A stretch of DNA of 64,000 nucleotides. It comes from Mesocentrotus franciscanus. Taxonomy: Eukaryota > Echinodermata > Echinoidea > Camarodonta > Strongylocentrotidae. Positions within the stretch are counted from its first letter, which is position 1, and the number at the start of each line of letters is the position of its first letter. The position numbers and the translations under genes are program-made. Location: NCBI GenBank assembly GCA_037976565.1, contig CP137672.1:26934877-26998876 (forward strand), read 5' to 3'. The notes under the pieces were generated by a model. It made no database searches, was not told the DNA's origin, and was given only the letters and a program-made list of their open reading frames with translations. Of the stretch, positions 14,666 through 64,000 are shown in pieces.

Positions 14666-14684
14666 GTAAGAATGCTAGGTTTCA

Positions 14685-19060: not shown

Positions 19061-19284
19061 GAAAGCAATATGTTATTGCTTGCGGCAATAGCATGGAGTC
19101 CTTTTTAGATTATTGTCACTGCCTTTGTCGCTATGCTCTACTTAACTTAGGGGAATTCCATACTATTGTCATATTTAGTATTGTATTCTTCTCAATATGC
19201 ATTCAACATTTTCAACTTGTATTTCAAAATATGATAACTTGTATTATTTTATTGTTATTCGTATATATGATATATACGGTTCTA

Positions 19285-31248: not shown

Positions 31249-31383
31249 CTATTTCAAAAAATTCTACAATCGACGGACATGAAGGGCGCTTTACTTGCGT
31301 CAACAGTAATCTGACCTTTGACATTGATGACGTTTGTGATGGACAATACCAGTGCCCTTATTTAGATGATGAATACATTTGCG
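31249..31383 (+). CDS. LDLa exon 1 of the second LGR gene (four-Cys form)
   Basis: This 135-base exon has acceptor TTTTTTGCAG and donor GTAAGT, phase 1-1. It encodes an LDL-receptor class A-like module: FTC ... FDIDDVCDGQYQC ... DDEYICG. LDLa modules of type C LGRs project from the N terminus and take part in ligand-dependent activation. The Ca2+-binding acidic cluster is kept. Only cysteines 2, 4, 5 and 6 of the usual six are visible; 1 and 3, which pair with each other in the canonical fold, are both absent. Confidence 0.85.
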
Positions 31384-31671
31384 GTAAGTTATACAAGCTT
31401 TGCAGGCTGATATTGTTTGGGTTTTTGTTTTGTTTTTGATACGTTACGGTGGGCCGGGGATATTCTCAAGGTTCATTATCCCGAAAACGAAATGATAAAA
31501 AAAACCTGTTTTGATTTTCGGAATAACGAACCTTCGGATAAACGGACCTTCGGAATAGCACAATATTCAGAATTATAAACCCTATTTTACTTTCTAAATC
31601 ATGAACCCGTGTTATACAATTATGAACTCTAAGTCCCCTGGTTGATAATACAAGCATACACATGCTTTCTT

Positions 31672-33061: not shown

Positions 33062-33190
33062 ATAATGAATATTGCAGTTCAGTAGAATACATTTGTGACT
33101 ACGAGGATTCGTATGCATGTATACCACTGGACTATGTTTGCGATGGATACCCTGACTGTGAACAGAACGGCATCGATGAGATATTATGCG
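33062..33190 (+). CDS. LDLa exon 2 of the second LGR gene
   Basis: This 129-base exon has acceptor CACCGCCAG and donor GTAAAG, phase 1-1. It encodes a canonical six-cysteine LDLa module: EYCSSVEYIC, YACIPLDYVCDGYPDC, then IDEILCG, with the acidic Ca2+ site. It lies between LDLa exon 1 and the LRRNT exon at 49823, which also needs a phase-1 donor. The polypyrimidine tract before it is good. Confidence 0.9.
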
Positions 33191-37700: not shown

Positions 37701-39081
37701 CGCAATCCTCAATTTCTGAATAACCAGAGATTTCATTTTCAATACCTGTTCTTGCATTAAAATCTCCTAGAAGACAAAATGGCAAACTATGTACATTTTT
37801 TAACATGAGAAAATCAGAAGCAATGTCATCAAACATTGAATCGTTGAAATATTTTGAATTTTCAGGAGGAATGTAAACAGCACCAAGTATAAAAGGAAAT
37901 CCAAATGCCTCCTCGCTGATCTTTAACCAAAATACTGTTTCGGATTTAACCTGTTTTGACACGAAATTGAATATTTCTTTTCGTAGTAGAACACCAAGTC
38001 AATGAACACCACCAAACGGAAAGTTGCTTTGACTTGGTTTGTCTTTAAACAGGTATTTGAAGCCATCTGGTAAAACAGATTCATTTATATCGTCAACTTT
38101 GGTTTCACTTAAACATACAACATGAAAATCCTTAATGTACTGTTCTAATATTCCATCATTTAATTTTTTCTTAACCCGCAAACGTTTAAAATTAAAAAAT
38201 TAGCATACTTCGTCAACGAATTCACCGGGCCGACGTATCCCTATCCCATCAAGAAAAGACCCGATGAACGAAGACGGTCCTCGGACCGCCCGATCTTCAG
38301 GAGGTCATCAGGCGTGTCGATGATTACCTTCGAACCGCCATTCAGTATGCAAAAGATTCTGCCGTCGATGGTCCAAACTTTCTCGATACTTTCACGGTCT
38401 TCTTTTACCTTCCTAAGCATCTTAGCTCGGAGCGAAGTCAGATCTTCGGCGATGAAGATGTCCCGCTTTGTCTCCCTCAGTCGCCGCTTTTTCTTCATGA
38501 ACTCCGTCCTCTTATCTCTCCGCACGAACTTGGCCAAGATTGGCGCCGGCTTACCTGATCTCCCACCAGGTAGACGGTGTGAGACGCTGATGTCCTCCCT
38601 CGTCACCTTCACACCAATCTCCCTCCCCAGTTTCACCACCACCTCGGATGTGTCCTCCCCAGCTGTCTCAGGCAGACCATAAATCTTTATGTACTCGCGA
38701 CGGCTATATTGTTCAAGACGGTCCACCTCAAATCTTAAGAGGTTGGTCTGGGCGGATGCTGCTGCTGACGGAGTAGGAGGAGGAGGAGTCCTTTTTGTTC
38801 AATCCTTCCATGACGGAATCCATGGCCGCAGTCACTGCAGTTGCCACGGTCTTGATAATGATGGGTTGCAGGACCTCAATAACCTGTCGCACTAGGTCAG
38901 CAACCAGATCGTTGTTTAGCTTCGGTCCTGCAGACAAGGGCGTTGTCGAAGACTGCCTCTTCTTTGAGCTAGCACCGGTAACCATAGCGTAGCTGACAGC
39001 TTCCGATACCGAGTCTTTTAGAGTAGACTTCATTGGCTTCATTGACACTTCATCGTCTAGTACGTGGAAGTTACTCGCCAT
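34731..39081 (-). mobile_element. Nearly full-length non-LTR retrotransposon (two ORFs, inactivated)
   Basis: Minus strand, reading from high to low coordinates. ORF1 is at 39081-38241 in two frames: an N-terminal part starting MASNFHVLDDEVS, then an RRM-like ORF1p part with EQYSRREYIKIYGLPE and SVSHRLPGG. ORF2 begins near 38181 with an APE endonuclease (VVCLSETKVDD; LLGDFNARTG at about 37780). RT blocks follow at 36825-35880: INRLKNGKAHGDD, DDQAGFRNGHSTLDHIF, CAFIDYKKVFD, VRQGENLSPMLFALF and YADDTIFLAQ. The C-terminal region (35792-34731) has LPILLYGSEIWG and a CTLCN...H...C zinc-like cluster. Several frameshifts and stops inactivate it. The YADDT and RQGENLSP blocks suggest the jockey/CR1 superfamily broadly; clade uncertain. 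Confidence 0.88.
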
Positions 39082-39089
39082 AACAGGTG

Positions 39090-39690
39090 TCTAAGTTTGA
39101 CGTAACACTAAAGATATGACGTAATAAATGAGATGCGCGAATGATGAAGCGCGTTGCAACCAAAGATGTGATGAGGACGCGTAAAGTAAGCTAAGTGATG
39201 GTTGTTAACGGAACGGTTTTTTATATTGTTATGAAAATTGAGTAGATACGCGTATAACTTGTTGATATTCAAAAGTTCTTTTGCGAAAACACGAAAAATA
39301 GTCAAAAAAGGCTCCAAAATTGAGATTAAATATTTAATATTTAATAATTTATTGATTTCACGAGAAAAATTGCAGAGGATAGACCGAATGCACATGTGTG
39401 CGCGCAGCGGATAACGCGCACAGCTGTGCTGCCATGGTGATGTGATCGTGATATCGATATCGACTGCATGTACTGTGTACATAATGTACGTACACACGTA
39501 CTGTACTGCACTATGTGTATTATAAGATGGGTAGAAGAATCCCTGCAATCTGATTGGTCAATTACTGTGCAGTTATTTTTACTGGATGCACGCGATATCA
39601 ACACGATATATGCGATATTAGAATCGATAACACCGATATCCCGGCGCCGGTTGTTTACATCGTCTGCCCCAACAAAAAAAAAAACAAGAT
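39090..39690. other. Non-coding flank between LINE and Crypton-like fragment
   Basis: AT-rich near the LINE end, then several CGATAT/GATATCG motifs (39440-39640). No gene recognised; could be 5' sequence of the fragment at 39690. Confidence 0.4.
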
Positions 39691-42719: not shown

Positions 42720-45600
42720 TGTATTAATTGTTTTCACTTGCTCGTCCCCCTGAAAAAAGAAAAGGATTAGCATTGCCTAGAATACAATTGCGCCTGCCCC
42801 GACGGTCCTCGACCTTCAACGATGGCAACAATAACACCCAATTTATGAACCAAATGTTACTAAAAGAGAGTAATTCATTATTTCTCGCTCGCTACGCTCG
42901 CTCGCGAATAAATGGAATAGACATTGCTTTGAAAATTGTGCCCACCCTTGACCTGCAACAATATCATTAAAAATGGAAGTGTTTTTTCGCCCTCTCGCCA
43001 AAAAGGAATTGATATCGCGTTAAACGCGATTGCGCCCATCCCGACCTGCACCAATAAAAACAAGTTTATGTATTAATTTCTATTAAAAGAGAATTGATTT
43101 TTTTGCTTGCTCGCTATGCTCGCTCGCCAAAATGGAATTGACATTTCTAACAAAATATGTGCGCCCCCTTGCCTGCAACAATAATCCCAGTAAATAAGTA
43201 CCAAACGTTATTTTAAGAGATATTGTTTCCTCGCTCGTCAGAATTGATGAATTGATTGATTTCAGTGATTGATATATGAGTTGATTTGTGTCACCCCGAC
43301 CTGCAACATAAAGATCTATGTTTATATACCAATTATCATTGAAAGAAAAGAGTATTTTTGCTCGCTCGCTATACGCTCACTCCCAAATATGTAATTAACA
43401 TCGCCTTAAGCGCGATTGTGCTTGCCCCAACTTGCAGCAAATCAGTAAAAAAAAAATAATAATAAGCCCCGACCTGCTAGGGTAGATGTTAATCTATGGG
43501 TGCGTTTATCGGGTCTTGCCGTCAGATATGTACATATCGAACCCCACTATCGAACCCCACTATCGAACCCCACTATACGAACGTGATTCTCAGGATGTCG
43601 CGTTTATCGGCTCTTCACGATTCAAAATAAAGGCCTTGTCTCTGCGCAGCTGCTTTGCGCCGTTTGACCCGGGAAGCAGATTAGCCTGGGAAGGTCCATA
43701 GAGCTATATGGTAAGGTCCGATTTGTATGTGGGGTTCAAAACAGCTTTGCGTTTATCGTGTCTCAGAAACGTGATTCTGGCTGTATGTCACATTCAAAAC
43801 GCACCTTTTTCGGCGTTACAATATGCCCATATCTAAAGACGTTTGAAATAGGGCTTTGCGTTTATCGCCTTAAAAATTTGCCTGAAAGACGTTTGAAAAC
43901 GCTGATTCTAGGCAAAAATTTGGTCGATAAACGCGACCTATGTTCCAATCATCATAAGACAATTATATTTTACGCTCGCTAGCCGAATGGAATTAACATC
44001 ATCTTAAAACATGATCGTGTCCACTCCAACCTGCAACAAAAAACTTAAGTTTACGTACCAATTATTATTATTGAAAGAATAGTGTATTTTCCAGCTTGGT
44101 TCGAGCTTGCTCGCCATAATGGAATTAACATCGCCTTTATGATTTTGCCCACCCTGACCTGCAACAATAAACCAAGTTCATGTACTAATCAACATTAAAA
44201 GAAAATTGATTTTTTTACCCTCTCTTGCTACGCTGTCTTTACAATTAACATCGCCAACAAACCTACAATAAATTACCAGTTAATAATTATGTACCAAACG
44301 TTATTCAAAGAATATTTGGTTTGCTCGCTAGCTACGCTCCTCGCCAAAATGGAATTAACATCACCTTAAACATGATTGTGTAAGCCCCGACCTGCAACAA
44401 AAACCTGAAAATTATGTACCAATCATCATTTTAAAAAAATTACGCTCGCTCGCCAAAATAGAAGTAACATCGCTTTTATTATAAATCACGCTTGTGCCGC
44501 CCCCAACATGGAACAATGAAACCAAGTTTATGTACCATGTTCTCACTAAAAGTAAAAGAGAAGTGATTTTTTTCGCTCGCTCGCCGAAGTGGACTTATGC
44601 TTACATTACTAACAAATGTGCCCGCCACTGACCTGCTACAATATCATTAAAAAGAGAGATGTGTGGTCTTTTTGCCTGCCCGCCAAAATGGGATTGACAT
44701 TGGCTTAAACATGATTGTACCCACCCCCGACCTGCACCAATTCATTGAGGACAATTAAACCAAGTTTAATTGGCAATTATTAAAACAAGAAGCGATTTTG
44801 TTTCTTGCTCGCTACGCTCGCTCGCCAAAATGAAATTAACATCGCTAACGTGCCCGCCCCAACCTGCAACAACCAGTTAATAATTATGTACCAAACGTTA
44901 TTCAAAGAAGTTTTGGTGTGCTCGCTCGCCAAAATGGAATTAACGTCACCTTAGACATGATTGTGTAAGCCCTGACCTGCAACAAAAAAACCTGAAATTT
45001 ATGAACCAATTATCATTACAAAAATTTGGCTCGCTCGCTACGCTCGCTCGCCAAAATAGAAATAACATCGCTTGTAATAATCACGTCCCTGTCATGGAAC
45101 AATGAAACCAAGTTTATGTACCATGTTCTCAATAAAAAGAGAAGTGTTTTTTCGCTCGCTCGCTACGCTCACTAGCTAGCTCGTGGAATTATGTGCCCAC
45201 CACTGACCTGCTACAATATCATTAAAAGAGAAATGTAGGGGGGTTGCCTGCCCGCCAAAATGGGATTGACATTGCCTTAAACACGATTGTGCCCGCCCCC
45301 GACCTGCAACAATGAAACAAATTTTATATAGCAATTCATTGAGAGAAAGGTGTATTTTCGCTCGCTAGCTAAAATGGGTGTAAAATCACCCTAAATACAA
45401 TATTATTCCCGCACCCGGTATGGGACAACTGAACCAAGTTTAAGTGGCGATTATTAAAAAAGAAGTGATTTTTTTCTTGCTCGCTACGCTCGCTTGCAAA
45501 AATGAAATTAACGTCGCTAACAAAAGAATGTGCCCACCCCGACTTGCAACAATACCAGTTTATATACCAAACATTAATTTGCATCGCCTTTTTTGTTTTG
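42720..45600. repeat. Tandem array of about 95-130-bp GCTCGCTCG units
   Basis: Repeat landmarks GACCTGCAACAA (or variants) recur near 42952, 43045, 43172, 43302, 43431, 44030, 44159, 44270, 44391, 44508, 44631, 44732, 44866, 44975, 45093, 45206, 45301, 45419 and 45540. Each is preceded by a GCTCGCTCGCC-type motif and followed by AAGTTTATGTACCAATTATTA-like text. Units are diverged, so the array is older than its host copy's insertion here. Confidence 0.85.
43493..43950. mobile_element. MITE inside the hAT-like element
   Basis: The left end near 43498 reads GGGTGCGTTTATCGGGTC. The right end near 43920-43937 reads GGTCGATAAACGCGACC, giving an inverted pair around GCGTTTATCG. TAT flanks both ends. 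It interrupts the tandem units on both sides. Inside are three copies of TATCGAACCCCAC (43537-43573) and more GCGTTTATCG copies (43610, 43750, 43858). Confidence 0.65.
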
Positions 45601-45655
45601 TTTCGGTCGCTTGCCCCCCCTGACGGAGTACCCCAGATACGCCACTGCTTAGCCG

Positions 45656-48599
45656 AGAAGTTCTTTTTCGCATTTGATAGAGGGTAAGTCTTTACCATGA
45701 CTTTGCTTCCTTCAGTGATGCGGCACTCATCACGGCTCTGGTCGTAATATTGTTTGGAGCTACTAACAGCGCGTTGACGATTGTGTGCGATTTCTTCTTG
45801 TGTAGGAATGTCTTTGTTTCCCTCGGTCTGCAGGCGGTTAGTCAAGGGAGAAGCCAAGCGTCGTCCAAACATAACTACTGAGGGTTCCACACCAAGTGTG
45901 TCATGACTACTGCTATTCAGGGCAAACGCGAGTTCAGCGAGGTGAACATCCCACTGTCGATGGTCAGATCCGGTGTAAGCTTGGAGCATGGCCTTGATGT
46001 TACGGTTCACCCTTTCGACCCAGTTCGTTTGAGGGTGATATGGCGTGATGAAGATCTGCTCTGTCCCCCAGTCTGCGCAGACTGCTCGCAGAACCTTCCC
46101 TCTGAATTGGGGGCCATTGTCCGAGAGCAGGGCTCCTGGAGGTCCATATCTACAGAACAGCTCCCTCACTAGAGTGGTCGCAACCGATTGGCTGGTAGCT
46201 GACTTCAAAGGCAAAATCTCCACAAACTTTGAGAAATGGTCGACAGCCACCAGAATATACTCATGCCCAGCATATGACTTTGGCAAAGGCCCCATAAGAT
46301 CTACACCAACCTTTTTCCAAAGCCTCGAGGAGGTACTAGACAGCATTTTCCCTTGACGTCTCTGGTAAGAAGTCTTCGTTTGAAGACAAACCTTACAACT
46401 GCGAATAAAGCTTCTCACAGACTGCGACATACCACTCCACCAGAGACCCATCGACTTCAACCTTTGGAGTGTCTTCTTCCTCCCAACATGCCCAGCTATT
46501 GGCTTGCAATGACACTCAACTAACACTGCATTCTGAAGCACCTTGGGGATAACTACACATTCTTTCTTATACAACACCATTTCCTTCAAACTGAAATCCG
46601 AGATTTTCTGAACAGGACCTTGATTCTCACCACCACCATTCTTTTGCTTTTCAAGGATCTGAATGACTGGCAAAAGATCTGGGTCACACTGTTGGGCCCT
46701 CAGGACAGAATCCTTTGTCAAATCCAAAGGAAGAACAACTTCATCTGTGAACTCTAACTTGCCAACACAAGATGGGCAAGAGTACTTGACTACATTCTCC
46801 GCCTCCTGAGAACCAATATGGACACAAACCTGGTGATACCACTTATCACAATAATCACATTGTACCCAGCCAACCGACTCATCATCCGGGGAAATACAAT
46901 CACTGGCAGCACATAAGTCATTTACATGTCTGTCACTGTCTTGATTCAACAAGACCCTGCTTAAAACTCCCACCAAAGGGGCAACACCATTCTCAGGAAT
47001 CCTAGAAAGTGCGTCCGGGACATGATGCTGCTTTCCAGGCCTATATATCACCTGAAACCGGAAATCCTGAAGCCTCAGAATCCAACGTGCAAGTCGTCCA
47101 TTCTGCTTCTTCTTCCGAAATAGCCAGCAGAGTGCCTGGTGGTCCGTTACAACACGACACTCTCTACCTTCCAGATATGGCCGCCATTTTTCGAGGGCCC
47201 AGACTACAGCCAAGCACTCCTTCTCGGTAGTACTATAATTCCTTTCTGCAGCAGACAGAGACCGACTTGCGTAGGCAATAGTTCGCGTCCCAGACGGTTG
47301 CTGCTGGACCAGGACTGCACCAACCCCAACATTGCTGGCATCGGTGTGCACAACAAACCTTGATTCTTCATCAGGGTAGCCTAGTATTGGCTCAGTGAGG
47401 AGGCTCTCCTTCAAGGCCTGAAAAGCATGGGTGCATTCAGCAGTCCAATTCCAGGGAACACCCTTCTTCTTTAACCCATGAAGGGGTGCAGCAACATCTG
47501 AGAAGCAAGGAATGAATTTCTGATACCAACCAGCCATCCCAAGGAACCTCTCTAATTCCTTGATCGACCTCGGTTGGGGATAGTTAACAATGGTGGACAC
47601 CTTCTCGGGGTCCATCTTGAGTCCATTCGAGCTGACAACATGGCCAAGATATTTCATTTCTTGGCAGGCAAACTGACATTTCTCAGTATTTACTGTCAGT
47701 CCCGCTTGTCTCAAGCAACAAAAGATTTCCTGAAGATCAGAGATGTGCTGTTCAATATCTGGAGAGAAACACACAATGTCATCCAAGTAGACATAGCAAT
47801 TCCGCCCTATCAGGCCATCAAGCACCTTGGACATCAACCGTTGGAAACTGGCAGGACCATTCACAACACCGAAAGGAAGGACCTTGAAGTGGAACAGACC
47901 CCTATGACAAACAAAGGCAGTCTTCTCCTCATCCTCACCTGCAACGCCCATCTGCCAGTATCCACTGCGCAGATCTAATGACGAGAAAACCGAGGCACCA
48001 TGCAGGGAGCTCAAAATGTCATCCACTGTAGGCATGGGGAAGGCATCAACCTTGGTAACCGTATTCAATTTCCGGTAATCGACACACATCCTGTATTTCC
48101 CGTTTTTCTTTGGAACCATCACTACAGGAGCGGCCCAAGGTGAGTCTGAAGGTTCAATCTTCCCCATGTCCAGAAGCTTATCCAACTCTTCATCAAGAGC
48201 CTGTCTTTTCTCAGGACTCACCTTGTAAGGGTGAGAGCGGATGGGAGAAGCCCCTCCCACATCAATTCTATGAATAACCATGTTTGTATGACCAGGTACT
48301 TCACTAAACACATCTGGGAAGTCTTGAAAAACCTGATCTAATTTCTGTCTATTCACTTCAGTTAGATCAAGTTTCTTCATCTCATTCTCAGCTTGGAGAT
48401 GAACATCGACTTCTTCTCCAACATGTGACATCTCCTGCCCTCCATTCAAAGAGAACTTAACTGGCCGCTCACTGGCCCCATTGCTACTTGTGCTAAAACT
48501 ACGACTGCCAAAATCTATGACAAGTTTCACCTTTTCAGCAAAGTCAGCACCAAAGGAGGATAGGTACTGGGAGCCTACCAACCACATGAAAGACCTCAA
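45656..48599 (-). CDS. Ty3/gypsy pol: RT, RNase H, PHD finger, integrase
   Basis: An open frame of 1076 codons runs from 48599 to 45369; the last part (below 45656) is hAT-like sequence. In order: a protease tail remnant (SQYLSSFGADF), RT (PYKVSPEKRQALDEELDKLL; CVDYRKLN; SSLDLRSGYWQM; VYLDD catalytic box), RNase H (VVHTDASNVGVGAVL; YSTTEKECLAVVWAL; VVTDHQAL), a PHD-type zinc finger (CDYCDKWYHQVCV ... YSCPSC, about residues 585-625), an H-H-C-C integrase zinc domain (HCKPIAGHVG ... CKVCLQTK), and the integrase core with all three acidic residues (VGVDLMGPL, LSDNGPQF, NWVERVNR). RT and integrase look intact, but without gag and protease the copy cannot act alone. Confidence 0.93.
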
Positions 48600-48660
48600 C
48601 CAAAACCAACAGTGTCAACGTCTCACAAATCCTTAGATTTCTTCCATCCCATAGCACAAA

Positions 48661-49755: not shown

Positions 49756-49822
49756 TCTATGTGTGTTTTATCATCAAATGACAGTTTTCACGCTAATCAC
49801 ATCGGTGTTTCTCTTTTTATAG

Positions 49823-49928
49823 ATCCGCTAGATTGTGTGCCGTCTTGCCGATGTTCTGCTTACAGTGTATCTTGTGAAGGTCCTAACATCGTTGATGATA
49901 CCAACATTAGAAAATCAACAAGAGAGCT
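49823..49928 (+). CDS. LRRNT (N-terminal cap) exon of the second LGR gene
   Basis: This 106-base exon has acceptor TTTTTATAG and donor GTAAGT, phase 1 in and phase 2 out. The translation DPLDCVPSCRCSAYSVSCEG has the C-x3-C-x-C-x6-C pattern of an LRR N-terminal cap, followed by PNIVDDTNIRKSTREL. It switches phase between the LDLa exons (phase 1) and the LRR exons (phase 2), as in relaxin-receptor-type genes. Confidence 0.85.
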
Positions 49929-50262
49929 GTAAGTTGGAGAAAAAAATACATTTTAGAAATGTAGCTATCCCCCTTAAGTCTTCATTTCTCAAGCAATATA
50001 AGAACATGAATAACAATAAACACGTCGTGTGTCCGGACAGGTTGGTTATCTAGACAGCTGATTTGAAACACCATTTTTTTAAAATTGACATGCAATATTT
50101 AAATGATCTTTTAAGACTTATGTTATATAGTATTATAAATAACATGATGGTTAGGGCTATTGATGCATCTTTTTCGTTAAATCCAAATGCACAAGTGAAA
50201 GTTTTTTTTAATTCTTGTTAAGCTACCTTCTTTCTTCTTCTTCTACTTCTTATTCTTTGCAG

Positions 50263-50349
50263 ATATTTCATTGGGGAATGGATCAACGGAACGAAGATGC
50301 CATTATCGATGCCATTCAACGTGACAACATATCCGCTTTTAGTACAATT
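50263..50349 (+). CDS. LRR-region exon joining cap to first repeat
   Basis: This 87-base exon has acceptor CTTTGCAG and donor GTAAGG, phase 2-2. The translation LYFIGEWINGTKMPLSMPFN then VTTYPLLVQL matches the PxxxPxNVTxLxLxxN entry into the first LRR. One N-glycosylation site is in NGT and another in NVT. It reads directly into the 51880 exon. Confidence 0.8.
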
Positions 50350-51879: not shown

Positions 51880-51951
51880 AAATATTTACAATACTGGACT
51901 AAGGGAACTTCTTCGAGCGGACTTCGTGACTCTGACAGAACTCAGAATTAT
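51880..51951 (+). CDS. LRR exon 1
   Basis: 72 bases, acceptor CTTGCAG, donor GTAAGG, phase 2-2. The repeat reads NIYNTGLRELLRADFVTLTE then LRI, fitting NxIxxLxxxxFxxLxxLxxL. Together with the previous exon it starts the LRR solenoid that would bind a protein ligand outside the cell. Confidence 0.85.
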
Positions 51952-53615: not shown

Positions 53616-53687
53616 GAAATTACCATACAATAACATATTTCGGATCGAGGACCTTAGTTTCAGCAATTTGAACAAGTTGACCAAGAT
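53616..53687 (+). CDS. LRR exon 2
   Basis: 72 bases, acceptor TCTTTCAG, donor GTGAGT, phase 2-2. It reads KLPYNNIFRIEDLSFSNLNK then LTK, a standard 24-residue LRR. It resembles the C-type exons of the tandem cassette downstream (IEDFSFRDLNKL), suggesting it is an older relative of them. Confidence 0.88.
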
Positions 53688-54139: not shown

Positions 54140-54211
54140 GGATATATCTTACAATATCATCGGTTCATTGTCAAATATTACCTTTACCGGTTTGAACAGT
54201 CTGACAGAAAT
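54140..54211 (+). CDS. LRR exon 3
   Basis: 72 bases, acceptor TGCCTCCAG, donor GTAAGT, phase 2-2. It reads DISYNIIGSLSNITFTGLNS then LTE. It is related to the A/B-type exons below (SLSSDTFAGLTGL). One N-glycosylation site (NIT). Confidence 0.88.
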
Positions 54212-54704: not shown

Positions 54705-55139
54705 ATGCCCGGATTACATTTGGCCTGCGATTAGTCTACGGATCCCGTATCCAGGGGGCGGCCGTGAGATTTTCGTATGGATTCACGGGCTCCGCGATCT
54801 CTATGATTTTGTTTCGCAGAAAGTTATACAAATTTTAAAAATCGTAAGCCCGTAGTCCGTAGACATGTCGTAGGTGTCATTGCACAATCCCCGCACGGGC
54901 ATCGCGCGGAGGACTCGCGCTGATCGTGCAGCAAACGCACGATTTTCGGTGAACATGGATGCCAAAAAAAAACGCTTAAAAACGGCACGGCGGCTGCACG
55001 GTCACCGCGCCTTCTCCGCGCAACCTTTGCACGGAAGCTGCATGAGCTCCATACGATTACCGTGCGGAGGCTGCGGAGGCTGTGGAGACTGCACGGCTAC
55101 TGCATTGAAATTGCACGATTTCCATTCAATCTCCGATCA
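54705..55139 (+). mobile_element. MITE, left part, cut at the cassette-array breakpoint
   Basis: It starts ATGCCCGGATTACATTTG. A nearly complementary end (CAAATGTAATCCAGGCAT) closes the related copy at 58209. The interior is GC-rich with GCGGAGGCTGCGGAGGCTG. From 54928 to 55139 it matches 57862-58075. At GATCA (55135-55139) the homology stops and tandem-cassette sequence begins, sharing CAT at the junction. The 186-codon frame across it is an artefact fused to the LRR exon. Confidence 0.8.
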
Positions 55140-55204
55140 TGCTACCTTGAAGCAATATTTTTGTATAAACTTGTTTATAATGTATACTTTTCATCTGTGC
55201 ATTC

Positions 55205-55300
55205 AAACATGCTCTCTCTCTCTCTCTGTGTCTCTGTCCCTCTCTCTTTTCCTCTCTATCTCTCTATCTCTCTCTCTGTCTCCCACTATCTCTGTCTCTG
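55205..55300. repeat. (CT)n tract before exon A (recurs in each unit)
   Basis: TCTCTCTC/TCTGTC runs of 70-100 bases are present at about 55209, 57251, 59272, 61295 and 63334. Lengths differ between units, as expected for microsatellite drift after duplication. Frames of LSLSLSL are artefacts. Confidence 0.95.
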
Positions 55301-55358
55301 TATTTACAATTTACTGTATATACATAACATTCATTAATTCTCCTTTCTCTATCTACAG

Positions 55359-55430
55359 GGATTTGTCTGGCAATGTGATTGAATCATTATCGAGTGACAC
55401 CTTTGCCGGTTTGACTGGTCTTACAGATAT
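55359..55430 (+). CDS. LRR exon A, unit 1 (intact)
   Basis: 72 bases, acceptor TATCTACAG, donor GTAAGT, phase 2-2. It reads DLSGNVIESLSSDTFAGLTG then LTD, a standard LRR. It is the reference copy for the A exons below. Confidence 0.92.
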
Positions 55431-55850
55431 GTAAGTTTAATAATAGATAATAATATTGATGATAATGATAATATTAATAACGATAATGATGATGAAGATA
55501 ATGATCATTAACAATGGTAAAAATGATAATGATATCAATAATAATTAAACTGTCATTTCAATATTGCCAGTCATATCATCTTTATAATAATGATGTTAAT
55601 GTTTTGTCATCTATCATATATTTAGACTGTACACAATTACCAGCTTTCACACATTTTACAATTTATTTTCCACTTAACTTCTAAGGTCACGTTTTATCGT
55701 CCACCCTCTCCACCCCGGGCTATCACGCTATTAAACAAGCGCTTACTGTTATAGCCCTTCTTCTGCAGAAGAATATTATTCTGCTTCTTTATACACCACT
55801 TTTATTTGTGTATGTGTGTGTTATGAACTCTTCTCTTTTTTACCTTGCAG

Positions 55851-55922
55851 GGATTTGTCTCACAATGTTATTAAATCATTGTCAAGTGATACCTTTATGG
55901 GTTTGACTAGTCTGACAAATAT
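55851..55922 (+). CDS. LRR exon B, unit 1 (intact)
   Basis: 72 bases, acceptor TTACCTTGCAG, donor GTGAGT, phase 2-2. It reads DLSHNVIKSLSSDTFMGLTS then LTN. Its strong similarity to exon A shows that A and B arose by an earlier single-exon duplication. Confidence 0.92.
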
Positions 55923-56267
55923 GTGAGTAAAAATTTTTTATCTGTACATTTATTGTGTACATTTATCCCCGCTAATAGCACCTATTGAATCATAACTTAA
56001 CTTTATAAAGAAGTGCGCTCTAAATGAACTCATTGTATGATATTCTGTTCTTCATTTTCACGGGGAGCTAATTACAATTAAGCTTAATTAAATACTCAAC
56101 GTTTGGAGGAAACCTTAAATCTACAATTATAGTTTAATGGCAATTAAGTTCGTAATATTTCTCCAATTAAAACCAAAAAATCATCTATTAAATTGGGCAA
56201 AACTATGACAGAACCAATTTTCATGATTAAAAGATTGTATGACTCGTATAATTTTGTATTTTTTCAG

Positions 56268-56339
56268 AAACCTGGCATACAATAATATATCACAAATAGA
56301 GGATTTCAGTTTCCGAGATTTGAACAAATTGATAACACT
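56268..56339 (+). CDS. LRR exon C, unit 1 (intact)
   Basis: 72 bases, acceptor TTTTTTCAG, donor GTAAGT, phase 2-2. It reads NLAYNNISQIEDFSFRDLNK then LIT; units 3 and 4 have LTT. Related to LRR exon 2. Confidence 0.92.
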
Positions 56340-56381
56340 GTAAGTGTCTATATATTACTCTAAAAAGCGTTACGTTCTACT

Positions 56382-56611
56382 CAGGGGCGTCGCTATAGGA
56401 GGGGGTTAGGAGCACTAATTTCTTTATTTTTTGCTCAAGGGGGTGGGGTGGGTGTTGAGTAAAAAAATAGTGCTCACTACTCCCCCTTCCCCCGTTGAGC
56501 AAAAAAAATTAACAAACGTAGTGCTCCTTTCCCCCGCTTATTCGCCGACTAGATCCGCCCCTGTCTACACCCCCCCCCCACCCAACTGAAAAAGGTCTAG
56601 CGACGCCCCTG
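56382..56611. mobile_element. hAT-like MITE in unit 1
   Basis: The 14-base inverted ends CAGGGGCGTCGCTA enclose 230 bases with GTGCTC motifs around poly-A/poly-C runs. Flanks GTTCTACT (left) and CTTCTATT (right) are a likely diverged 8-bp duplication. Unit 2 has the empty site (about 58714-58721). Confidence 0.88.
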
Positions 56612-57039
56612 CTTCTATTTCGCTTAAGTATGTTTTTATATAGAAAATTCATGATAATTATCGGTGAATGAGAAATTAACAAACTGTTCAAATTGAAATC
56701 GTCGTTGATCTTATGCGCTGTGAATCCACTCAAATGTTTTTATATTAAACGATATTTTTGAAGGGGTAACAATATACCACGGAATATAATGATAGTAAAT
56801 AATAGTAATGATAATATATAAACATAATATACAATAGGAATAATCTTAGCACGGATTGAGGATTAAGGATTCAGTAATGTGAGCGAGTATGCATCGAGTG
56901 TGAGGTAGCTTCTTTGCTTCACTATGTTTTTTTTTTAAACTAGAAATGTACTTCTGAAGGGGGAAAAAAAACTCTTAGGAAGACAAATGTGATTGTGAAA
57001 AAGTGGAGAGGTACATATTCATTTGGAGGAAAAAACATA

Positions 57040-57045
57040 AGACGA

Positions 57046-57079
<34 letters not shown>

Positions 57080-57105
57080 AAGAGGGTGACAGGGAAGGAA
57101 GAGAG
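57040..57105. repeat. (GA)n tract (recurs in units)
   Basis: GAGAGAGA tracts at about 57043, 61080 and 63118; a degenerate form is at 59082 in unit 2. Intron sequence. Confidence 0.95.
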
Positions 57106-57408
57106 AATGAAAATCTATTTTAACTAGTTACTGAAAATGTTCTAAAAACAAGTAAATTGGTTACCAAACTTGGTTAACATGCTACCTTGAAGCATTCTTT
57201 TTGTATAAACTTGTCTATAATGTATACTTTTCATATGTTCAGTAAAACCTGCTCTCTCTCTCTCTCTCTCTGTCTGTCTGTATGTCTCTGTCCCTCTCTC
57301 GTTTCCTCTATATCTCTCTTTCTCTCTCCCACTATCTCTAGCTGTCTCTGTATTTACCATTTACTGTATATACATAAAGTTCATTAATTCTCCTTTCTCT
57401 ATCTACAG

Positions 57409-57480
57409 GGATTTGTCTCGCAATGTAATTGAATCATTGTCGAGTGACACCTTTGCCGGTTTGACTAGTCTTACAGATAT
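57409..57480 (+). CDS. LRR exon A, unit 2 (intact)
   Basis: 72 bases, phase 2-2, good splice sites. It reads DLSRNVIESLSSDTFAGLTS then LTD: an Arg replaces the Gly of unit 1. The preceding intron is of the b subtype (TTGAAGCATTCTTTTTG) shared only with unit 5. Confidence 0.9.
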
Positions 57481-57594
57481 GTGAGTTTAATAATTGATAA
57501 TAAAAATATTAATAATAATAATAAAGATAATAACTATAATGATGATGATAATAATAATGATGATAATAGTAACAATGGTAAAAATGATATTAGT

Positions 57595-57858
57595 AGCTGT
57601 CTGTTGCGAAGCGACAATGACCGCCTTCACTTTCATGAAGGCTGCTTGCAAAGGTGGGTAAGTACCGGTAGCTCTTGCAAGTTACTAACGGCACTCTCTC
57701 GGGGAACTGGTGGCAGTTTCACACCGGCGAGGACAAGCCAGGACGGGTGTGAACCACTAGACCCTGCAGGGACTGGTCGAAGGATGTCGGGAGTTCCTTA
57801 TTGTCAATCGACCTCAATGCTGTCACGGTGGCATGGTTTTCTGTTAGGGTTTGCTCCA
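57595..57858. other. GC-richer foreign segment in unit 2
   Basis: This sequence (with GTCTGTTGCGAAGCGACAAT and GGGACTGGTCGAAGGATGTC) is absent from the other units and clearly less AT-rich. It replaces the place where exon B would lie, directly upstream of the MITE copy. The plus-strand frame (57481-57915) has no recognisable domain. It may be a LINE UTR or other repeat; identity unknown. Confidence 0.6.
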
Positions 57859-57861
57859 AAC

Positions 57862-58209
57862 GCAGCAAACGCACGATTTTCGTTGAACATGGAGGCCAAA
57901 AAAAAAAACGCTTAAAAACGGCACGACGGCTGCACGGTCACCACGCCTTCTCCGCGCAACCTTTGCACGGAGGCTGCATGAGCTCCATACGATTACCGTG
58001 CGGAGGCTGCGGAGGCTGTGGAGACTGCACGGCTACTGCATTGAAATTGCACGATTTCCATTCAATCTCCGATCAGCCTCTGTACGGATTTGCCCCGGCC
58101 TGCCCCCGAGGGCCAATACAAGAAATGGCACAATGTTCGTAGATAATGTAAACACAAACATCGTAGCCCGTAGCCTCCTATACGCCCGGGGCAAATGTAA
58201 TCCAGGCAT
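57862..58209 (+). mobile_element. MITE, right part, in unit 2
   Basis: It matches 54928-55139 over its first 214 bases, then continues past GATCA through GCCTCTGTACGGATTTGCCC to the terminal CAAATGTAATCCAGGCAT. The left end is missing, replaced by the foreign segment. Together the two copies define the full element. Confidence 0.8.
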
Positions 58210-58248
58210 TTAATGAAAAACATTCCTTTTTTTTTCTCAGTTTTGTAG

Positions 58249-58320
58249 GAAATTGGCAAATAATGAAATATCTCGGATTAAAGTTTTCACTGTCAGTCAT
58301 TTGAACGAATTGACTAAACT
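58249..58320 (+). pseudogene. LRR exon with destroyed donor, unit 2
   Basis: After TTTTGTAG the sequence reads KLANNEISRIKVFTVSHLNE then LTK in 72 bases, a good LRR. The next bases are TTAAAG instead of GTAAGT, so the donor is lost and reading through meets a stop at once. It is a relative of LRR exon 2 rather than of A, B or C, and probably a dead exon. Confidence 0.75.
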
Positions 58321-58609
58321 TTAAAGCCCCCTCCTCTCCCGTACACTGTATAATCTGACTATACGATCCGATTTTTGAAAATTTGCAATAGCGTTTGATA
58401 TGAACATTCAAAATTCAAAATTCCTAATGATCGATGATTTGAATAGTCATATGATTAATATACCTTAAATTCTACAATATTAGTTTAATGGCGATCAAGT
58501 TCGTTATATTTCTCCAATTAAAAAAAATGCATATATTAAATTGGGCAAAACTATGACAGAACTAATTTTCATGATTGAGAGATTGTGTGTATAATTTGCT
58601 ATCTCGCAG

Positions 58610-58680
58610 AAACCTGTCATACAATAATATATCATGATTGAGGATTTCAATTTTCATGATTTGAACAAACTGACAACACT
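58610..58680 (+). pseudogene. LRR exon C copy, frameshifted, unit 2
   Basis: 71 bases between CTCGCAG and GTAAGT. The sequence follows exon C (NLSYNNIS) but has lost one base and reads TGA directly after ATATCA. It is unlikely to code. Confidence 0.85.
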
Positions 58681-59402
58681 GTAAGTGTCCATAAACTACT
58701 CTAAAAGCGTTACGTTCTACTTCGCTTGAGTAGGTTTTGTTATCCAGAATAATCATAATTATATTAAATGATATTTTTGAAGGAATATTAATATTTCACG
58801 GAATATAATGATAGTGTATAATAGTAACAGATATAATATATAATAGTAAGGATAATATATACACATAATATATAAGAGGAATAATCTATCAGGGATTGAG
58901 GATTGAGAATTCAGTAATTTCAGCGAGTAAATATCAAATGTGTTGTAGCTTCTTCGTTTCACTATGTTTTTTTTTTAAGTAGAAATATACTTCTGAAGGG
59001 ATTTTTTTTTTAAGGAAAACAAATGTGATTACGAAAAAGTGGAGTGGTACATATTTATTTGGTGGGGAAAGAGATGAAAGACGCGAGAAAGAGATAGAAA
59101 AAGAGTGAAAGGGGCAGGAAGAGAGAATGAATATCTATTTTAACTAGTTACTGCAAAAGTTCTAAAAACCAAGTAAGTTGGTTACTAAACTTGGTTAACA
59201 TGCTACCTTGAAGCAATATTTTTGTATAAACTTGTTTATAATGTATACTTTTCATCTGTGCATTCAAACATGCTCTCTCTCTCTATCTCTGTCTCTGTCC
59301 CCTCTCTTTTCCTCTCTATATCTCTATCTCTCTCTCTCTCTCTGTATTTACAATTTACTGTATATACATAACGTTCATTAATTCTCCTTTCTCTATCTAC
59401 AG

Positions 59403-59473
59403 GGATTTGTCTGGCAATGTGATTGAATCATTGTCGAGTGACACCTTGCCGGTTTGACTGGTCTTACAGATAT
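59403..59473 (+). pseudogene. LRR exon A, unit 3 (one-base deletion)
   Basis: 71 bases: the ACCTTTGCC of intact copies is ACCTTGCC here, shifting the frame. Splice sites are unchanged. Skipping this exon would keep the frame, since all neighbours are phase 2-2. Confidence 0.88.
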
Positions 59474-59895
59474 GTGAGTTTAATAATTGATAATAATAAT
59501 AGTAATGATAATGATAATATTAATAACGATAATGATGATGAAGATAATGATCATTAACAATGGTAAAAATGATAATGATATCAATAATAATTAAACTGTC
59601 ATTTCAATATTGCCAGTCATATCATCTTTATAATAATGATGTTAATGTTTTGTCATCTATCATATATTTAGACTGTACACAATTACCAGCTTTCACACAT
59701 TTTACAATTTGTTTTCCACTTAACTTCTAAGGTCACGTTTTATCGTCCACCCTCTCCACCCCGGGCTATCACGCTATTAAGCAAGCGCTTACTGTTATAG
59801 CCCTTCTTCTGCAGAAGAATATTATGCTGCTTCTTTATACACCACTTTTATTTGTGTATGTGTGTGTTATGAACTCTTCTCTTTTTACCTTGCAG

Positions 59896-59967
59896 GGATT
59901 TGTCTCACAATGTTATTAAATCATTGTCAAATGATACCTTTATGGGTTTGACTAGTCTGACAAATAT
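59896..59967 (+). CDS. LRR exon B, unit 3 (intact)
   Basis: 72 bases, phase 2-2, acceptor CCTTGCAG, donor GTGAGT. It reads DLSHNVIKSLSNDTFMGLTS: Asn replaces the Ser of unit 1 and creates an NDT glycosylation site, shared with unit 4. Confidence 0.9.
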
Positions 59968-60313
59968 GTGAGTAAAAATTTTTTTATCTGTACATTTATT
60001 GTGTACATTTATCCCCGCTAATAGCACCTATTGAATCATAACTTAACTTTATAAAGAAGTGCGCTCTAAATGAACTCATTGTATGATATTCTGTTCTTCA
60101 TTTTCACGGGGAGCTAATTACAATTAAGCTTAAATAAATACTCAACGTTTGGAGGAAACCTTAAATCTACAATTATAGTTTAATGGCAATTAAGTTCGTA
60201 ATATTTCTCCAATTAAAACCAAAAAATCATCTATTAAATGGGGCAAAACTATGACAGAACCAATTTTCATGATTAAAAGATTGTATGACTTGTATAAATT
60301 TGTATTTGTTCAG

Positions 60314-60385
60314 AAACCTGGCATACAATAATATATCACAAATAGAGGATTTTAGTTTCCGAGATTTGAACAAATTGACAACACT
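60314..60385 (+). CDS. LRR exon C, unit 3 (intact)
   Basis: 72 bases, phase 2-2, acceptor TTTGTTCAG, donor GTAAGT. It reads as exon C of unit 1, with LTT in place of LIT at the end. Confidence 0.9.
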
Positions 60386-60427
60386 GTAAGTGTCTATATA
60401 TTACTCTAAAAAGCGTTACGTTCTACT

Positions 60428-60646
60428 CAGGGGCGTCGCTATAGGAGGGGGTAGGAGCACTAATTTCTTTATTTTTTGCTCAAGGGGGTGGGGTGGGTGT
60501 TGAGTAAAAAAATAGTGCTCACTACTCCCCTCCCCGTTGAGCAAAAAAAAAAAAAAGTAGTGCTCCTTCCCCCCCCCCCGCTTATTCGCCGACTAGATCC
60601 GCCCCTGTCTACACCCCCAACTGAAAAAGGTCTAGCGACGCCCCTG
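60428..60646. mobile_element. hAT-like MITE in unit 3
   Basis: Same insertion site and ends (CAGGGGCGTCGCTA) as in units 1 and 4; it differs mainly in the length of internal A and C runs. Inherited by duplication, not a separate insertion. Confidence 0.88.
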
Positions 60647-61430
60647 CTTCTATTTCGCTTAAGTATGTTTTTATATAGAAAATTCATGATAATTATCGGT
60701 GAATGAGAAATTAACAAACTGTCCAAATTGAAATCGTCGTTGATCTTATGCGCTGTGTATCCACTCCAATGTTCTTATATTAAACGATATTTTTGAAGGG
60801 GTAACAATATACCACGGAATATAATGATAGTAAATAATAGTAATGATAATATATAAACATAATATACAATAGGAATAATCTTATCACGGATTGAGGATTA
60901 AGGATTCAGTAATGTGAGCGAGTATGCATCGAGTGTGAGGTAGCTTCTTCGCTTCACTATGTTTTTTTTTAAAACTAGAAATGTACTTCTGAAGGGGGAA
61001 AAAAAACTCTTAGGAAGACAAATGTGATTGTGAAAAGTGGAGAGGTACATATTCATTTGGAGGAAAAAACATACGAGACGAGAGAGAGAGAGAGAGAGAT
61101 AGAGAGAGAGAGAGAAAGAGAGAAAGAGGGTGACGGGAAGGAAGAGAGAATGAAAATCTATTTTAACTAGTTACTGCAAAAGTTCTAAAAACCAAGTAAG
61201 TTGGTTACTAAACTTGGTTAACATGCTACCTTGAAGCAATATTTTTGTATAAACTTGTTTATAATGTATACTTTTCATCTGTGCATTCAAACATGCTCTC
61301 TCTCTATCTATGTCTCTGTCCCTCTCTCTTTTCCTCTCTATCTCTCTATCTCTCTCTCTCACTCTGTCTCTGTATTTACAATTTACTGTATATACATAAC
61401 GTTCATTAATTCTCCTTTCTCTATCTACAG

Positions 61431-61501
61431 GGATTTGTCTGGCAATGTGATTGAATCATTGTCGAGTGACACCTTGCCGGTTTGACTGGTCTTACAGATA
61501 T
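61431..61501 (+). pseudogene. LRR exon A, unit 4 (same one-base deletion)
   Basis: 71 bases with the same ACCTTGCC deletion as unit 3, so units 3 and 4 derive from one frameshifted parent. Splice sites are intact. Confidence 0.88.
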
Positions 61502-61923
61502 GTGAGTTTAATAATTGATAATAATAATAGTAATGATAATGATAATATTAATAACGATAATGATGATGAAGATAATGATCATTAACAATGGTAAAAATGA
61601 TAATGATATCAATAATAATTAAACTGTCATTTCAATATTGCCAGTCATATCATCTTTATAATAATGATGTTAATGTTTTGTCATCTATCATATATTTAGA
61701 CTGTACACAATTACCAGCTTTCACACATTTTACAATTTGTTTTCCACTTAACTTCTAAGGTCACGTTTTATCGTCCACCCTCTCCACCCCGGGCTATCAC
61801 GCTATTAAGCAAGCGCTTACTGTTATAGCCCTTCTTCTGCAGAAGAATATTATGCTGCTTCTTTATACACCACTTTTATTTGTGTATGTGTGTGTTATGA
61901 ACTCTTCTCTTTTTACCTTGCAG

Positions 61924-61995
61924 GGATTTGTCTCACAATGTTATTAAATCATTGTCAAATGATACCTTTATGGGTTTGACTAGTCTGACAAATAT
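61924..61995 (+). CDS. LRR exon B, unit 4 (intact)
   Basis: 72 bases, phase 2-2. It carries the same Asn change (SLSNDTF) as unit 3. Good splice sites. Confidence 0.9.
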
Positions 61996-62342
61996 GTGAG
62001 TAAAATTTTTTTTTATCTGTACATTTATTGTATACATTTATCCCCTCTAATAGCACCTATTGAATCATAACTTAACTTTATAAAGAAGTGCGCTGTAAAT
62101 GAACTCATTGTATGATATTCTGTTCTTCATTTTCACAGGGAGCTAATTACAATTAAGCTTAAATAAATACTCAACGTTTGGAGGAAACCTTAAATCTACA
62201 ATTATAGTTTAATGGCAATTAAGTTCGTAATATTTCTCCAATTAAAACCAAAAAATCATATATTAAATGGGGCAAAACTATGACAGAACCAATTTTCATG
62301 ATTAAAAGATTGTATGACTTGTATAATTTTGTATTTTTTCAG

Positions 62343-62414
62343 AAACCTGGCATACAATAATATATCACAAATAGAGGATTTCAGTTTCCGAGATTTGAAC
62401 AAATTGACAACACT
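62343..62414 (+). CDS. LRR exon C, unit 4 (intact)
   Basis: 72 bases, phase 2-2, acceptor TTTTTTCAG, donor GTAAGT. Same reading as unit 3. Confidence 0.9.
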
Positions 62415-62456
62415 GTAAGTGTCTATATATTACTCTAAAAAGCGTTACGTTCTACT

Positions 62457-62669
62457 CAGGGGCGTCGCTATAGGAGGGGGTTAGGAGCACTAATTTCTTT
62501 ATTTTTTGCTCAAGGGGGTGGGGTGGATGTTGAGTAAAAAAATAGTGCTCACTACTCCCTTCCCCGTTGAGCAAAAAAAAAAAAAGTAGTGCTCCTTCCC
62601 CCGCTTATTCGCCGACTATATCCGCCCCTGTCTACACCCCCAACTGAAAAAGGTCTAGCGACGCCCCTG
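62457..62669. mobile_element. hAT-like MITE in unit 4
   Basis: Same site and 14-base ends as units 1 and 3; 213 bases, shorter in its C-run. Confidence 0.88.
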
Positions 62670-63481
62670 CTTCTATTTCGCTTAAGTATGTTTTTATATA
62701 GAAAATTCATGATAATTATCGGCGAATGAGAAATTAACAAACTGTTCAAATTGAAATCTTCGTTGATCTTATGCGCTGTGTATCCACTCCAATGTTCTTA
62801 TATTAAACGATATTTTTGAAGGGGTAACAATATACCACGGAATATAATGATAGTAAATAATAGTAATGATAATATATAAACATAATATACAATAGGAATA
62901 ATCTTATCACGGATTGAGGATTAAGGATTCAGTAATGTGAGCGAGTATGCATCGAGTGTGTATGCATCGAGTGTGAGGTAGCTTCTTCGCTTCACTATGT
63001 TTTTTTTTAAAACTAGAAATGTACTTCTGAAGGGGGAAAAAAACTCTTAGGAAGACAAATGTGATTGTGAAAAGTGGAGAGGTACATATTCATTTGGAGG
63101 AAAAAACATAAGAGACGAGAGAGAGAGAGAGAGATAGATAGAGAGAGAGAGAAAGAGAGGAAGAGGGTGACAGGGGAAGGAAGAGAGAATGAAAATCTAT
63201 TTTAACTAGTTACTGAAAATGTTCTAAAAAACAAGTAAATTGGTTACCAAACTTGGTTAACATGCTACCTTGAAGCATTCTTTTTGTATAAACTTGTCTA
63301 TAATGTATACTTTTCATATGTTCAGTAAAACCTGCTCTCTCTCTCTCTGTCTGTCTGTATGTCTCTGTCCCTCTCTCGTTTCCTCTATATCTCTCTTTCT
63401 CTCTCCCACTATCTCTGTCTCTGTATTTACCATTTACTGTATATACATAAAGTTCATTAATTCTCCTTTCTCTATCTACAG

Positions 63482-63553
63482 GGATTTGTCTGGCAATGTG
63501 ATTGAATCATTGTCGAGTGACACCTTTGCCGGTTTGACTGGTCTTACAGATAT
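63482..63553 (+). CDS. LRR exon A, unit 5 (intact)
   Basis: 72 bases, phase 2-2; the TTT of ACCTTTGCC is present. Protein sequence equals unit 1 (Gly form), although the upstream intron is of the b subtype seen in unit 2. Unit 5 is thus a mosaic. Confidence 0.9.
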
Positions 63554-63976
63554 GTGAGTTTAATAATTGATAATAATAATATTAATGATAATGATAATAT
63601 TAATAACGATAATGATGATGAAGATAATGATCATTAACAATGGTAAAAATGATAATGATATCAATAATAATTAAACTGTCATTTCAATATTGCCAGTCAT
63701 ATCATCTTTATAATAATGATGTTAATGTTTTGTCATCTATCATATATTTAGACTGTACACAATTACCAGCTTTCACACATTTTACAATTTTTTGTCCACT
63801 TAACTTCTAAGGTCACGTTTTATCGTCCACCCTCTCCACCCCGGGCTATCACGCTATTAAGCAAGCGCTTACTGTTATAGCCCTTCTTCTGCAGAAGAAT
63901 ATTATTCTGCTTCTTTATACACCACTTTTATTTGTGTATGTGTGTGTTATGAACTCTTCTCTTTTTTACCTTGCAG

Positions 63977-64000
63977 GGATTTGTCTCACAATGTTATTGA
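63977..64000 (+). CDS. LRR exon B, unit 5 (cut by window end)
   Basis: It starts after TTACCTTGCAG and reads DLSHNVI before the window ends. The last bases (GTTATTGA) differ from the GTTATTAA of units 1, 3 and 4. The gene, including its 7TM exon, should continue beyond. Confidence 0.85.
   Translation, partial: GFVSQCY

Follow-up and report, generated by a model that had tools for sequence, protein, structure and literature searches.

An amplified three-exon LRR cassette in a type C LGR-like receptor gene of the sea urchin Mesocentrotus franciscanus

The subject of this report is a stretch of 64,000 nucleotides (the window) from Mesocentrotus franciscanus, corresponding to C7:26934877-26998876 on the + strand, where C7 is contig CP137672.1 of assembly GCA_037976565.1. 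Two genes resembling leucine-rich repeat (LRR)-containing G protein-coupled receptors (LGRs) lie head to tail here, with gene 1 ending at the left of the window and gene 2 located downstream. The LRR-exon region of gene 2, which is type C LGR-like, has very likely been expanded by unequal recombination, with conversion or later duplication keeping units alike; a sequence-only reading of this DNA had proposed recent tandem amplification at this place. Gene structures throughout are predictions, as is the splice junction between the LRR ectodomain and the seven-transmembrane (7TM) part; the genome searched comprised 773 Mb in 21 contigs.

A 2-kb unit repeated in tandem within gene 2

An anchor in the intron preceding exon A, the first exon of the repeated unit, recurs on the + strand at positions 55139, 57179, 59200, 61223, 63262, and 65305 (the last past the window), giving spacings of 2040, 2021, 2023, 2039, and 2043 bases, introns included. 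Between positions 55140 and 64000, 2401 shared 14-mer pairs were found at offsets of 1990 to 2080, versus none in each of 50 first-order Markov sequences, which served as the chance control. The six anchors and the 14-mer control bear out the periodicity of 2.02 to 2.04 kb noted in the sequence-only reading, and the array start that it placed at 55140 is correct, being the junction of a displaced block (see below).

The array exons are 72 nucleotides (nt) long (1+69+2), with phase 2-2 and AG/GT borders (Table 1). While exon length and phase agree with what had been claimed for every regular unit, only two of the five units (U1 and U5) actually carry three such exons. U2 is a rearrangement junction, in which exon A is followed by a copy of the 3' flank of the array, part of an element resembling a miniature inverted-repeat transposable element (MITE), a donor-less exon, and a frameshifted exon. 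Nor does each unit add exactly three LRRs in frame, as had been suggested: U3 and U4 have a frameshift in common, and a reading that takes in the 71-nt exons meets a stop within the exon at 58610. Joint restoration of the frame by the three 71-nt array exons was considered as well and was rejected, as the translation including them stops at once in that exon. In total, gene 2 as assembled contains 21 open LRR exons, four frameshifted ones, and one without a donor; among the 25 with both splice borders, 20 measure exactly 72 nt, one 69 nt, and four 71 nt. In gene 1, 15 LRR exons are open and the 7TM exon is intact.

Origin of the array

The four full-length units (U1, U3, U4, and U5) differ by substitutions at 28 to 69 positions per pair, that is, by 1.39% (U3-U4) to 3.40% (U1-U5); when the 5' intron, divergent in U5, is left out, the counts give 1.4 to 2.2% for the six unit pairs. 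Genes 1 and 2 differ by approximately 9 to 13% in most of their unique blocks, in keeping with the view that the tandem amplification was recent.

Two features point to exchange between units, and the suggestion of concerted evolution is upheld by both. In U5, the 5' intron differs by 13 to 14% from those of U1, U3, and U4 and aligns with those of U2 and U6, while its exon A shows 0 or 1 difference from the A exons of U1, U3, and U4; the switch point lies between intron and exon markers that are some 40 bases apart. Judged by its sequence, U5 is what unequal exchange between the last A exon and an internal A exon would be expected to produce. U3 and U4, in turn, share an identical run of 639 bp across exons A and B, the deletion included, with their differences located elsewhere. 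A run of this length was reached in 0 of 20,000 permutations, and p was 0.002 without microsatellites.

The displaced block, consisting of U1 and exon A of U2, is a 96.0% copy of the 3' end of the array (63261-65984). It is flanked on both sides by 214 bp of the MITE-like element, with 54928-55139 being 96.7% identical to 57862-58075. A second copy of this element (window 54706-58209) was found, at 82 to 90% identity, on contig C9 (L025 7203-7740). Gene 1 has a repeat of its own in the A-exon region, older and 88% identical. At the one threshold used, five GA-rich tracts were detected in 120 kb, all in the C-to-A introns of genes 1 and 2. This lead is weakened by a perfect GA run at -21965 and by CT and GAT tracts elsewhere, and a role of the GA tracts as an aid to mispairing, as has been proposed for the SpTransformer genes (PMC8634487), is a hint only.

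While the end states of the array can be read from the assembly, the order of events is one that we infer. An A-B-C-A block of four phase-2, 72-nt LRR exons with 2-kb spacing is common to both neighbouring genes and, by LRR type and order, to a relative in Strongylocentrotus purpuratus. Unequal recombination between homologous A exons and introns would have led to the six A positions of gene 2, and a tandem duplication reaching from the MITE-like element to the 3' flank of the array, followed by a deletion, may have left the displaced block inside the element. Conversion or a later duplication would have kept units alike and, in doing so, also have spread a frameshift between two of them. Intact symmetric (phase 2-2) exons, in any number, would join in frame to form one longer solenoid; since every LRR exon is symmetric, LRR number could drift with little penalty.

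Receptor class and structure

On its predicted domain order, gene 2 is type C LGR-like, with a signal peptide, two LDLa-like modules, an LRRNT, an LRR solenoid, a short hinge, and a one-exon 7TM; the sequence-only reading was right to call it a receptor gene, given this build of LDLa, LRR, and 7TM exons. The LDLa-like, LRRNT, cap, and LRR exons were located with the S. purpuratus protein P0121 as the query and by an exon scan. The second LDLa exon matched Pfam LDLa at 28.6 bits (cut-off, 24.1), while the first, searched alone, matched nothing in Pfam; LRR_8 was matched by the open LRR exons once joined (1.7e-143). In both genes the 7TM is contained in one open exon of 373 codons. The open frame of gene 1 at 475-1689 matched Pfam 7tm_1 (9.5e-27), with human RXFP1 as its best PDB match (4.8e-41), and the 7TM region of gene 2 (C7:27010143-27011351) is free of stops and encodes a protein 95% identical to that of gene 1, which is the closest paralogue found.

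The closest proteins to the 7TM are sea urchin predictions with the database names "GRL101-like" or "relaxin receptor"; S. purpuratus P0121 and P0239 are 96% and 95% identical over the 7TM, and P0001 is 87% identical in a search limited to shorter proteins. In relatives, both LRR and 7TM Pfam domains were matched, and the best PDB match of P0239 is RXFP1 (2.9e-71). The LDLa modules of P0121, P0122, P0239, and P0240 scored 19.9 to 22.4 bits, below the cut-off, and none is listed for P0241. Instead of the approximately 10 LRRs of type C LGRs, 21 open exons were counted in gene 2, 15 in gene 1, and 14 LRRs in P0239; P0121 does have 10. We use the label "type C LGR-like" because of this LRR number, the subthreshold LDLa scores of the relatives, and the one-exon 7TM.

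A structure model of P0239 (mean predicted local distance difference test score [pLDDT] of 71.7, with residues 18-156 below 50; only the LRR part was used) shows strands approximately every 24 residues through the cassette, with block pLDDT values of 86 to 95. This periodicity at high confidence indicates a single solenoid made longer by the additional LRRs. With Foldseek, the model chiefly matched LGR4 and glycoprotein-hormone receptors, at low whole-chain TM-scores (approximately 0.3 to 0.5 by query length among those matches). In mammalian type C LGRs, the peptide is bound via the LRRs and the LDLa module is needed for activation (PMC4561518). The amplified exons, lying between LRR2 and a constant tail, would lengthen the N-terminal part and increase the distance between the LDLa modules and the 7TM; in so far as LRR number matters, a change in it would alter the shape of the ligand-binding face in its N-terminal half.

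LRR number in relatives and distribution of the unit

The relatives compared are predicted proteins and isoforms, so exons that were skipped may be absent from their LRR counts. The 14 LRRs of P0239 run pre0, pre1, C, A, B, C, A and then continue into a seven-LRR tail, while P0121, with 10, looks as if C, A, B, and C had been removed at that place. Because these two differ at the same place, LRR number here is evolutionarily labile. Among the Lytechinus proteins, P0122 and P0240 have 13 LRRs each and P0241 has at least 12 (pattern scan), with the extra LRRs in the same interval. Open LRR numbers of 10, 14, 15, and 21 are found across paralogues and species that differ at the array interval, an indirect hint that the number may also vary between individuals. 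The A, B, and C types correspond across both genomes by residue identity, A and B being close to each other (17 to 20 of 23 residues in most comparisons). Within P0239, members of the C pair of repeats differ from each other at one residue, as do those of the A pair, which is fewer than separate them from their M. franciscanus counterparts; either concerted evolution or independent duplication would account for this likeness.

Among the best 40 of 3415 candidates, five matches of at least 1.7 kb to the 2-kb unit were found, all in genes 1 and 2; shorter matches (71 to 95%) lay at C21:0.53-0.65 Mb, and short intron pieces lay on many contigs. The genome count is a lower bound. Matches to the LGR 7TM numbered at least 119 in the genome (on C7, C9, C21, and other contigs, among the best 103 of 426 candidates, split and partial matches included). 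Cassette amplification as a general trait of this receptor family was considered and not adopted: in three more distant genes, sampled over the 10 kb upstream of each 7TM, a scan limited to phase-2 exons of 69, 72, or 75 nt yielded 7 to 8 LRR exons each, and no exon-containing repeat of at least 150 bp was present (0 of 3). In the paralogue region C21:512000-551999, a different, 3' LRR cassette is repeated (approximately 78 to 92% identity), and C21:610000-659999 shows a similar repeat (approximately 82 to 90% for matches bearing LRR exons). With these paralogues (C21:532000-551999 and 640000-659999; L017, L018, L022, and L023), the part of the solenoid that was amplified differs from gene to gene. 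Another LGR gene contains, between LRR exons, a tandem array with a spacing of 53 bp (94 to 98%; L024 2135-2884, reverse complement).

Alternative explanations and the state of gene 2

Several observations weigh against a recombinationally expanded, working receptor gene. For the other five unit pairs, the longest identical runs measure 206 to 246 bp (p, 0.09 to 0.20 without microsatellites), and their whole-unit permutation p values of 0.002 to 0.13 stem partly from the divergent intron of U5; since these pairs are nonsignificant without microsatellites, conversion is supported for U3-U4 only. Phase 2-2 LRR exons are also found in the three distant relatives, which have no array, so that exon symmetry alone does not indicate that length change has been selected for. 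Of the 25 LRR exons that have both splice borders, four carry frameshifts, and because of these, ordinary inclusion would lead to an early stop. Finally, haplotypes or reads of a shorter array might have been stitched into a longer one during assembly, around 55-58 kb. The unit differences of 1.4 to 3.4% fall within the heterozygosity of sea urchins, and the block at 55138-57857 is an out-of-place 96% copy. However, each pair of full-length units differs at 28 or more (up to 69) positions, the hybrid junction lies at a homologous point, the borders of the duplication fall within the inserted element, and gene 1 independently has its older, 88% repeat of the A-exon region; we consider an artefact quite unlikely, and expansion by recombination and conversion remains our preferred account of the array.

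Whether the expanded gene 2 yields a receptor is a separate matter. The frameshifts at 58610, 59403, 61431, and 69041, two of them (U3 and U4) being one change in common within the identical tract, suggest that this haplotype was recently inactivated, with the amplification being a neutral by-product of repeat recombination and broken exons accumulating unselected. We give this account slightly less than an even chance, since the 7TM is open over its 373 codons with a ratio of nonsynonymous to synonymous substitution rates (dN/dS) of 0.317 between genes 1 and 2 (18.5 synonymous and 18.5 nonsynonymous changes); eight unique LRR exons gave 0.656 (7 and 16 changes, respectively). Furthermore, amino acid changes polarised by P0121 show no excess in gene 2: in the 7TM, 8 were assigned to gene 2, 6 to gene 1, and 3 were unclear, and in 11 other exons the numbers were 5, 9, and 2, the second LDLa exon being omitted owing to a length difference between the genes there. 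The donor-less exon C' also occurs in gene 1, with its donor lost in the same way, and the exons found in that gene are open, which argues for tolerance of the loss of one LRR exon.

The frameshifted exons could instead be skipped, giving a receptor with approximately 21 LRRs or, through alternative splicing of symmetric exons, receptors of several lengths. Skipping of phase 2-2 exons keeps the frame, the translation of gene 2 is open through to the 7TM once the 71-nt exons are left out, and the 7TM is under purifying selection. Nevertheless, none of the four exons has lost its AG or GT border, their donors resemble the consensus, and a full-length product of the assembled haplotype would need four separate skips; we regard both this route and such a product as credible but somewhat doubtful. 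Were the exon at 58610 included, with its splice borders kept and a stop after 8 codons, a secreted LDLa-LRR decoy ectodomain with seven LRRs and no 7TM might result, a very unlikely outcome, as so many downstream exon junctions normally trigger message decay. Compared with a full-length product made by skipping, inactivity or truncation of the allele is slightly more probable.

Relation to known systems

The nearest parallel to the expansion of gene 2 is found in the LRR genes of Tetrahymena, described as having LRR exons of constant length with phase-2 introns, exon numbers that vary between genes, and repeats that include introns, with a mobile element near the units and intragenic unequal crossing over as the proposed cause (PMC6564038). 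Constant-length phase-2 LRR exons and intragenic repeats that include introns are both displayed by gene 2. Unlike the ciliate system, with its thousands of LRR genes and 90-bp exons (PMC6564038), the present one concerns an animal G protein-coupled receptor (GPCR) with 72-nt exons, in which a three-exon, 2-kb unit is present at length in two neighbouring genes. LRR amplification by exon cassettes is known in ciliates, and plant pathogen receptors are cited as examples of LRR exon shuffling (PMC6564038). In ranked listings of open-access full texts (subscription papers being outside this scope), no description of LRR-exon cassette amplification in an LGR-type GPCR was found.

With the type C LGRs RXFP1 and RXFP2, the genes have in common an N-terminal LDLa, LRRs of approximately 24 residues, and the 7TM, and P0121 has their 10 LRRs (PMC4561518); they differ in having two LDLa-like modules and 15 to 21 open LRRs. 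Some RXFP/LGR3 genes are reported to contain introns in the coding sequence of TM2 and TM5 (PMC11863921), in contrast to the one-exon 7TM here. The echinoderm GRL101-like receptors resemble the present genes in the database names of the closest proteins and in the combination of LDLa, LRR, and 7TM (PMC6267866, PMC8286064). However, one orthologue each of LGR3, LGR4, and GRL101 is given per ambulacrarian species studied in PMC8286064, versus the 119 or more 7TM matches found here, and the expanded 7TM group may lie outside that orthologue count. The SpTransformer genes of sea urchin show repeat-driven instability, with GA/GAT short tandem repeats next to the unit that is duplicated, and both conversion and unequal crossing over have been discussed for them (PMC8634487); those are immune genes that have been duplicated and whose repeats sit within one exon, whereas here LRR exon cassettes of a GPCR are involved.

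We speculate that the interval from LRR2 to the seven-LRR tail is a region of hypervariable length in an expanded receptor family, with ectodomain length varying between individuals, as the sequence-only reading had suggested, and perhaps between transcripts; we rate this as rather unlikely. If true, recombination and symmetric-exon splicing would constitute a germline system that diversifies a hormone-receptor-like GPCR. Genes 1 and 2 (7TM 95% identical; 15 versus 21 open LRRs) and the S. purpuratus pair (10 versus 14) make the effects of solenoid length on ligand binding and on LDLa-driven activation of a type C-like LGR testable, and the frameshift common to U3 and U4 illustrates that damage, and not only new repeats, can be spread by LRR arrays.

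Features of the two genes and other elements in the window

Table 1. Predicted exons of genes 1 and 2 and repeat features of the array, in window coordinates
Feature	Position	Strand	Basis
Gene 1, single 7TM exon, 373 codons + stop, phase-2 acceptor	567-1689	+	
Gene 2, signal-peptide exon	14557-14667	+	tblastn with S. purpuratus P0121, 81% identity
Gene 2, first LDLa-like exon	31251-31394	+	85% identity to P0121
Gene 2, second LDLa exon	33061-33189	+	91% identity to P0121
Gene 2, cysteine-rich LRRNT-like exon	49813-49929	+	82% identity to P0121
Gene 2, LRR cap exon, 87 nt, AG/GT borders	50263-50349	+	86% identity to P0121
Gene 2, LRR exon pre0, 72 nt, open	51880-51951	+	exon scan
Gene 2, LRR exon pre1 (C-like), 72 nt, open	53616-53687	+	exon scan
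Gene 2, LRR exon pre2 (A/B-like), 72 nt, open	54140-54211	+	exon scan
MITE-like element, left part, inverted end GCCYGGATTACATTTG	54706-55139	.	empty site in gene 1, inverted ends
Displaced block (U1 + U2 exon A)	55138-57857	+	
U1 exon A, open	55359-55430	+	exon scan
U1 exon B, open	55851-55922	+	exon scan
U1 exon C, open	56268-56339	+	exon scan
U2 exon A, open; neither B nor intact C after it	57409-57480	+	
MITE-like element, right part, 214 bp duplicated	57862-58209	.	
C', LRR exon relic, splice donor lost (TTTAAA)	58249-58319	+	
C'', LRR exon, 71 nt, stop after 8 codons, AG and GT borders kept	58610-58680	+	
U3 exon A, 71 nt (1-nt deletion), AG and GT borders kept	59403-59473	+	
U3 exon B, open	59896-59967	+	exon scan
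U3 exon C, open	60314-60385	+	exon scan
U4 exon A, 71 nt (1-nt deletion identical to that of U3)	61431-61501	+	
U4 exon B, open	61924-61995	+	exon scan
U4 exon C, open	62343-62414	+	exon scan
U5 5' intron, U2/U6-type sequence joined to U1-type exon A (hybrid unit)	63261-63481	+	
U5 exon A, open	63482-63553	+	exon scan
U5 exon B, open, crosses window end to 64048	63977-64000	+	
U5 exon C, open, beyond window	64395	+	
U6, exon A only, last A exon found, outside window	65535-65606	+	
Gene 2, LRR exon downstream of array, 69 nt	66300	+	
Gene 2, open LRR exons downstream of array	67526, 68230, 69724, 70234, 73645	+	
Gene 2, LRR exon, 71 nt, frameshifted	69041	+	
Gene 2, 7TM exon, ~11 kb past window	75356-76478	+	

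Besides these features, the window contains, antisense within an intron of gene 2 (45369-48614, - strand), an open Ty3/gypsy-like Pol frame with reverse transcriptase, RNase H, and integrase zinc-binding and core domains, in which a PHD finger (27.1 bits; cut-off, 24) is located between RNase H and integrase. Several antisense open frames at 34731-39090 (- strand) resemble a non-long-terminal-repeat retrotransposon, judging from the reading frames. At 19282-19811, two arrays with a period of 16 bp adjoin each other, and the consensus unit of one is a rotated reverse complement of that of the other.

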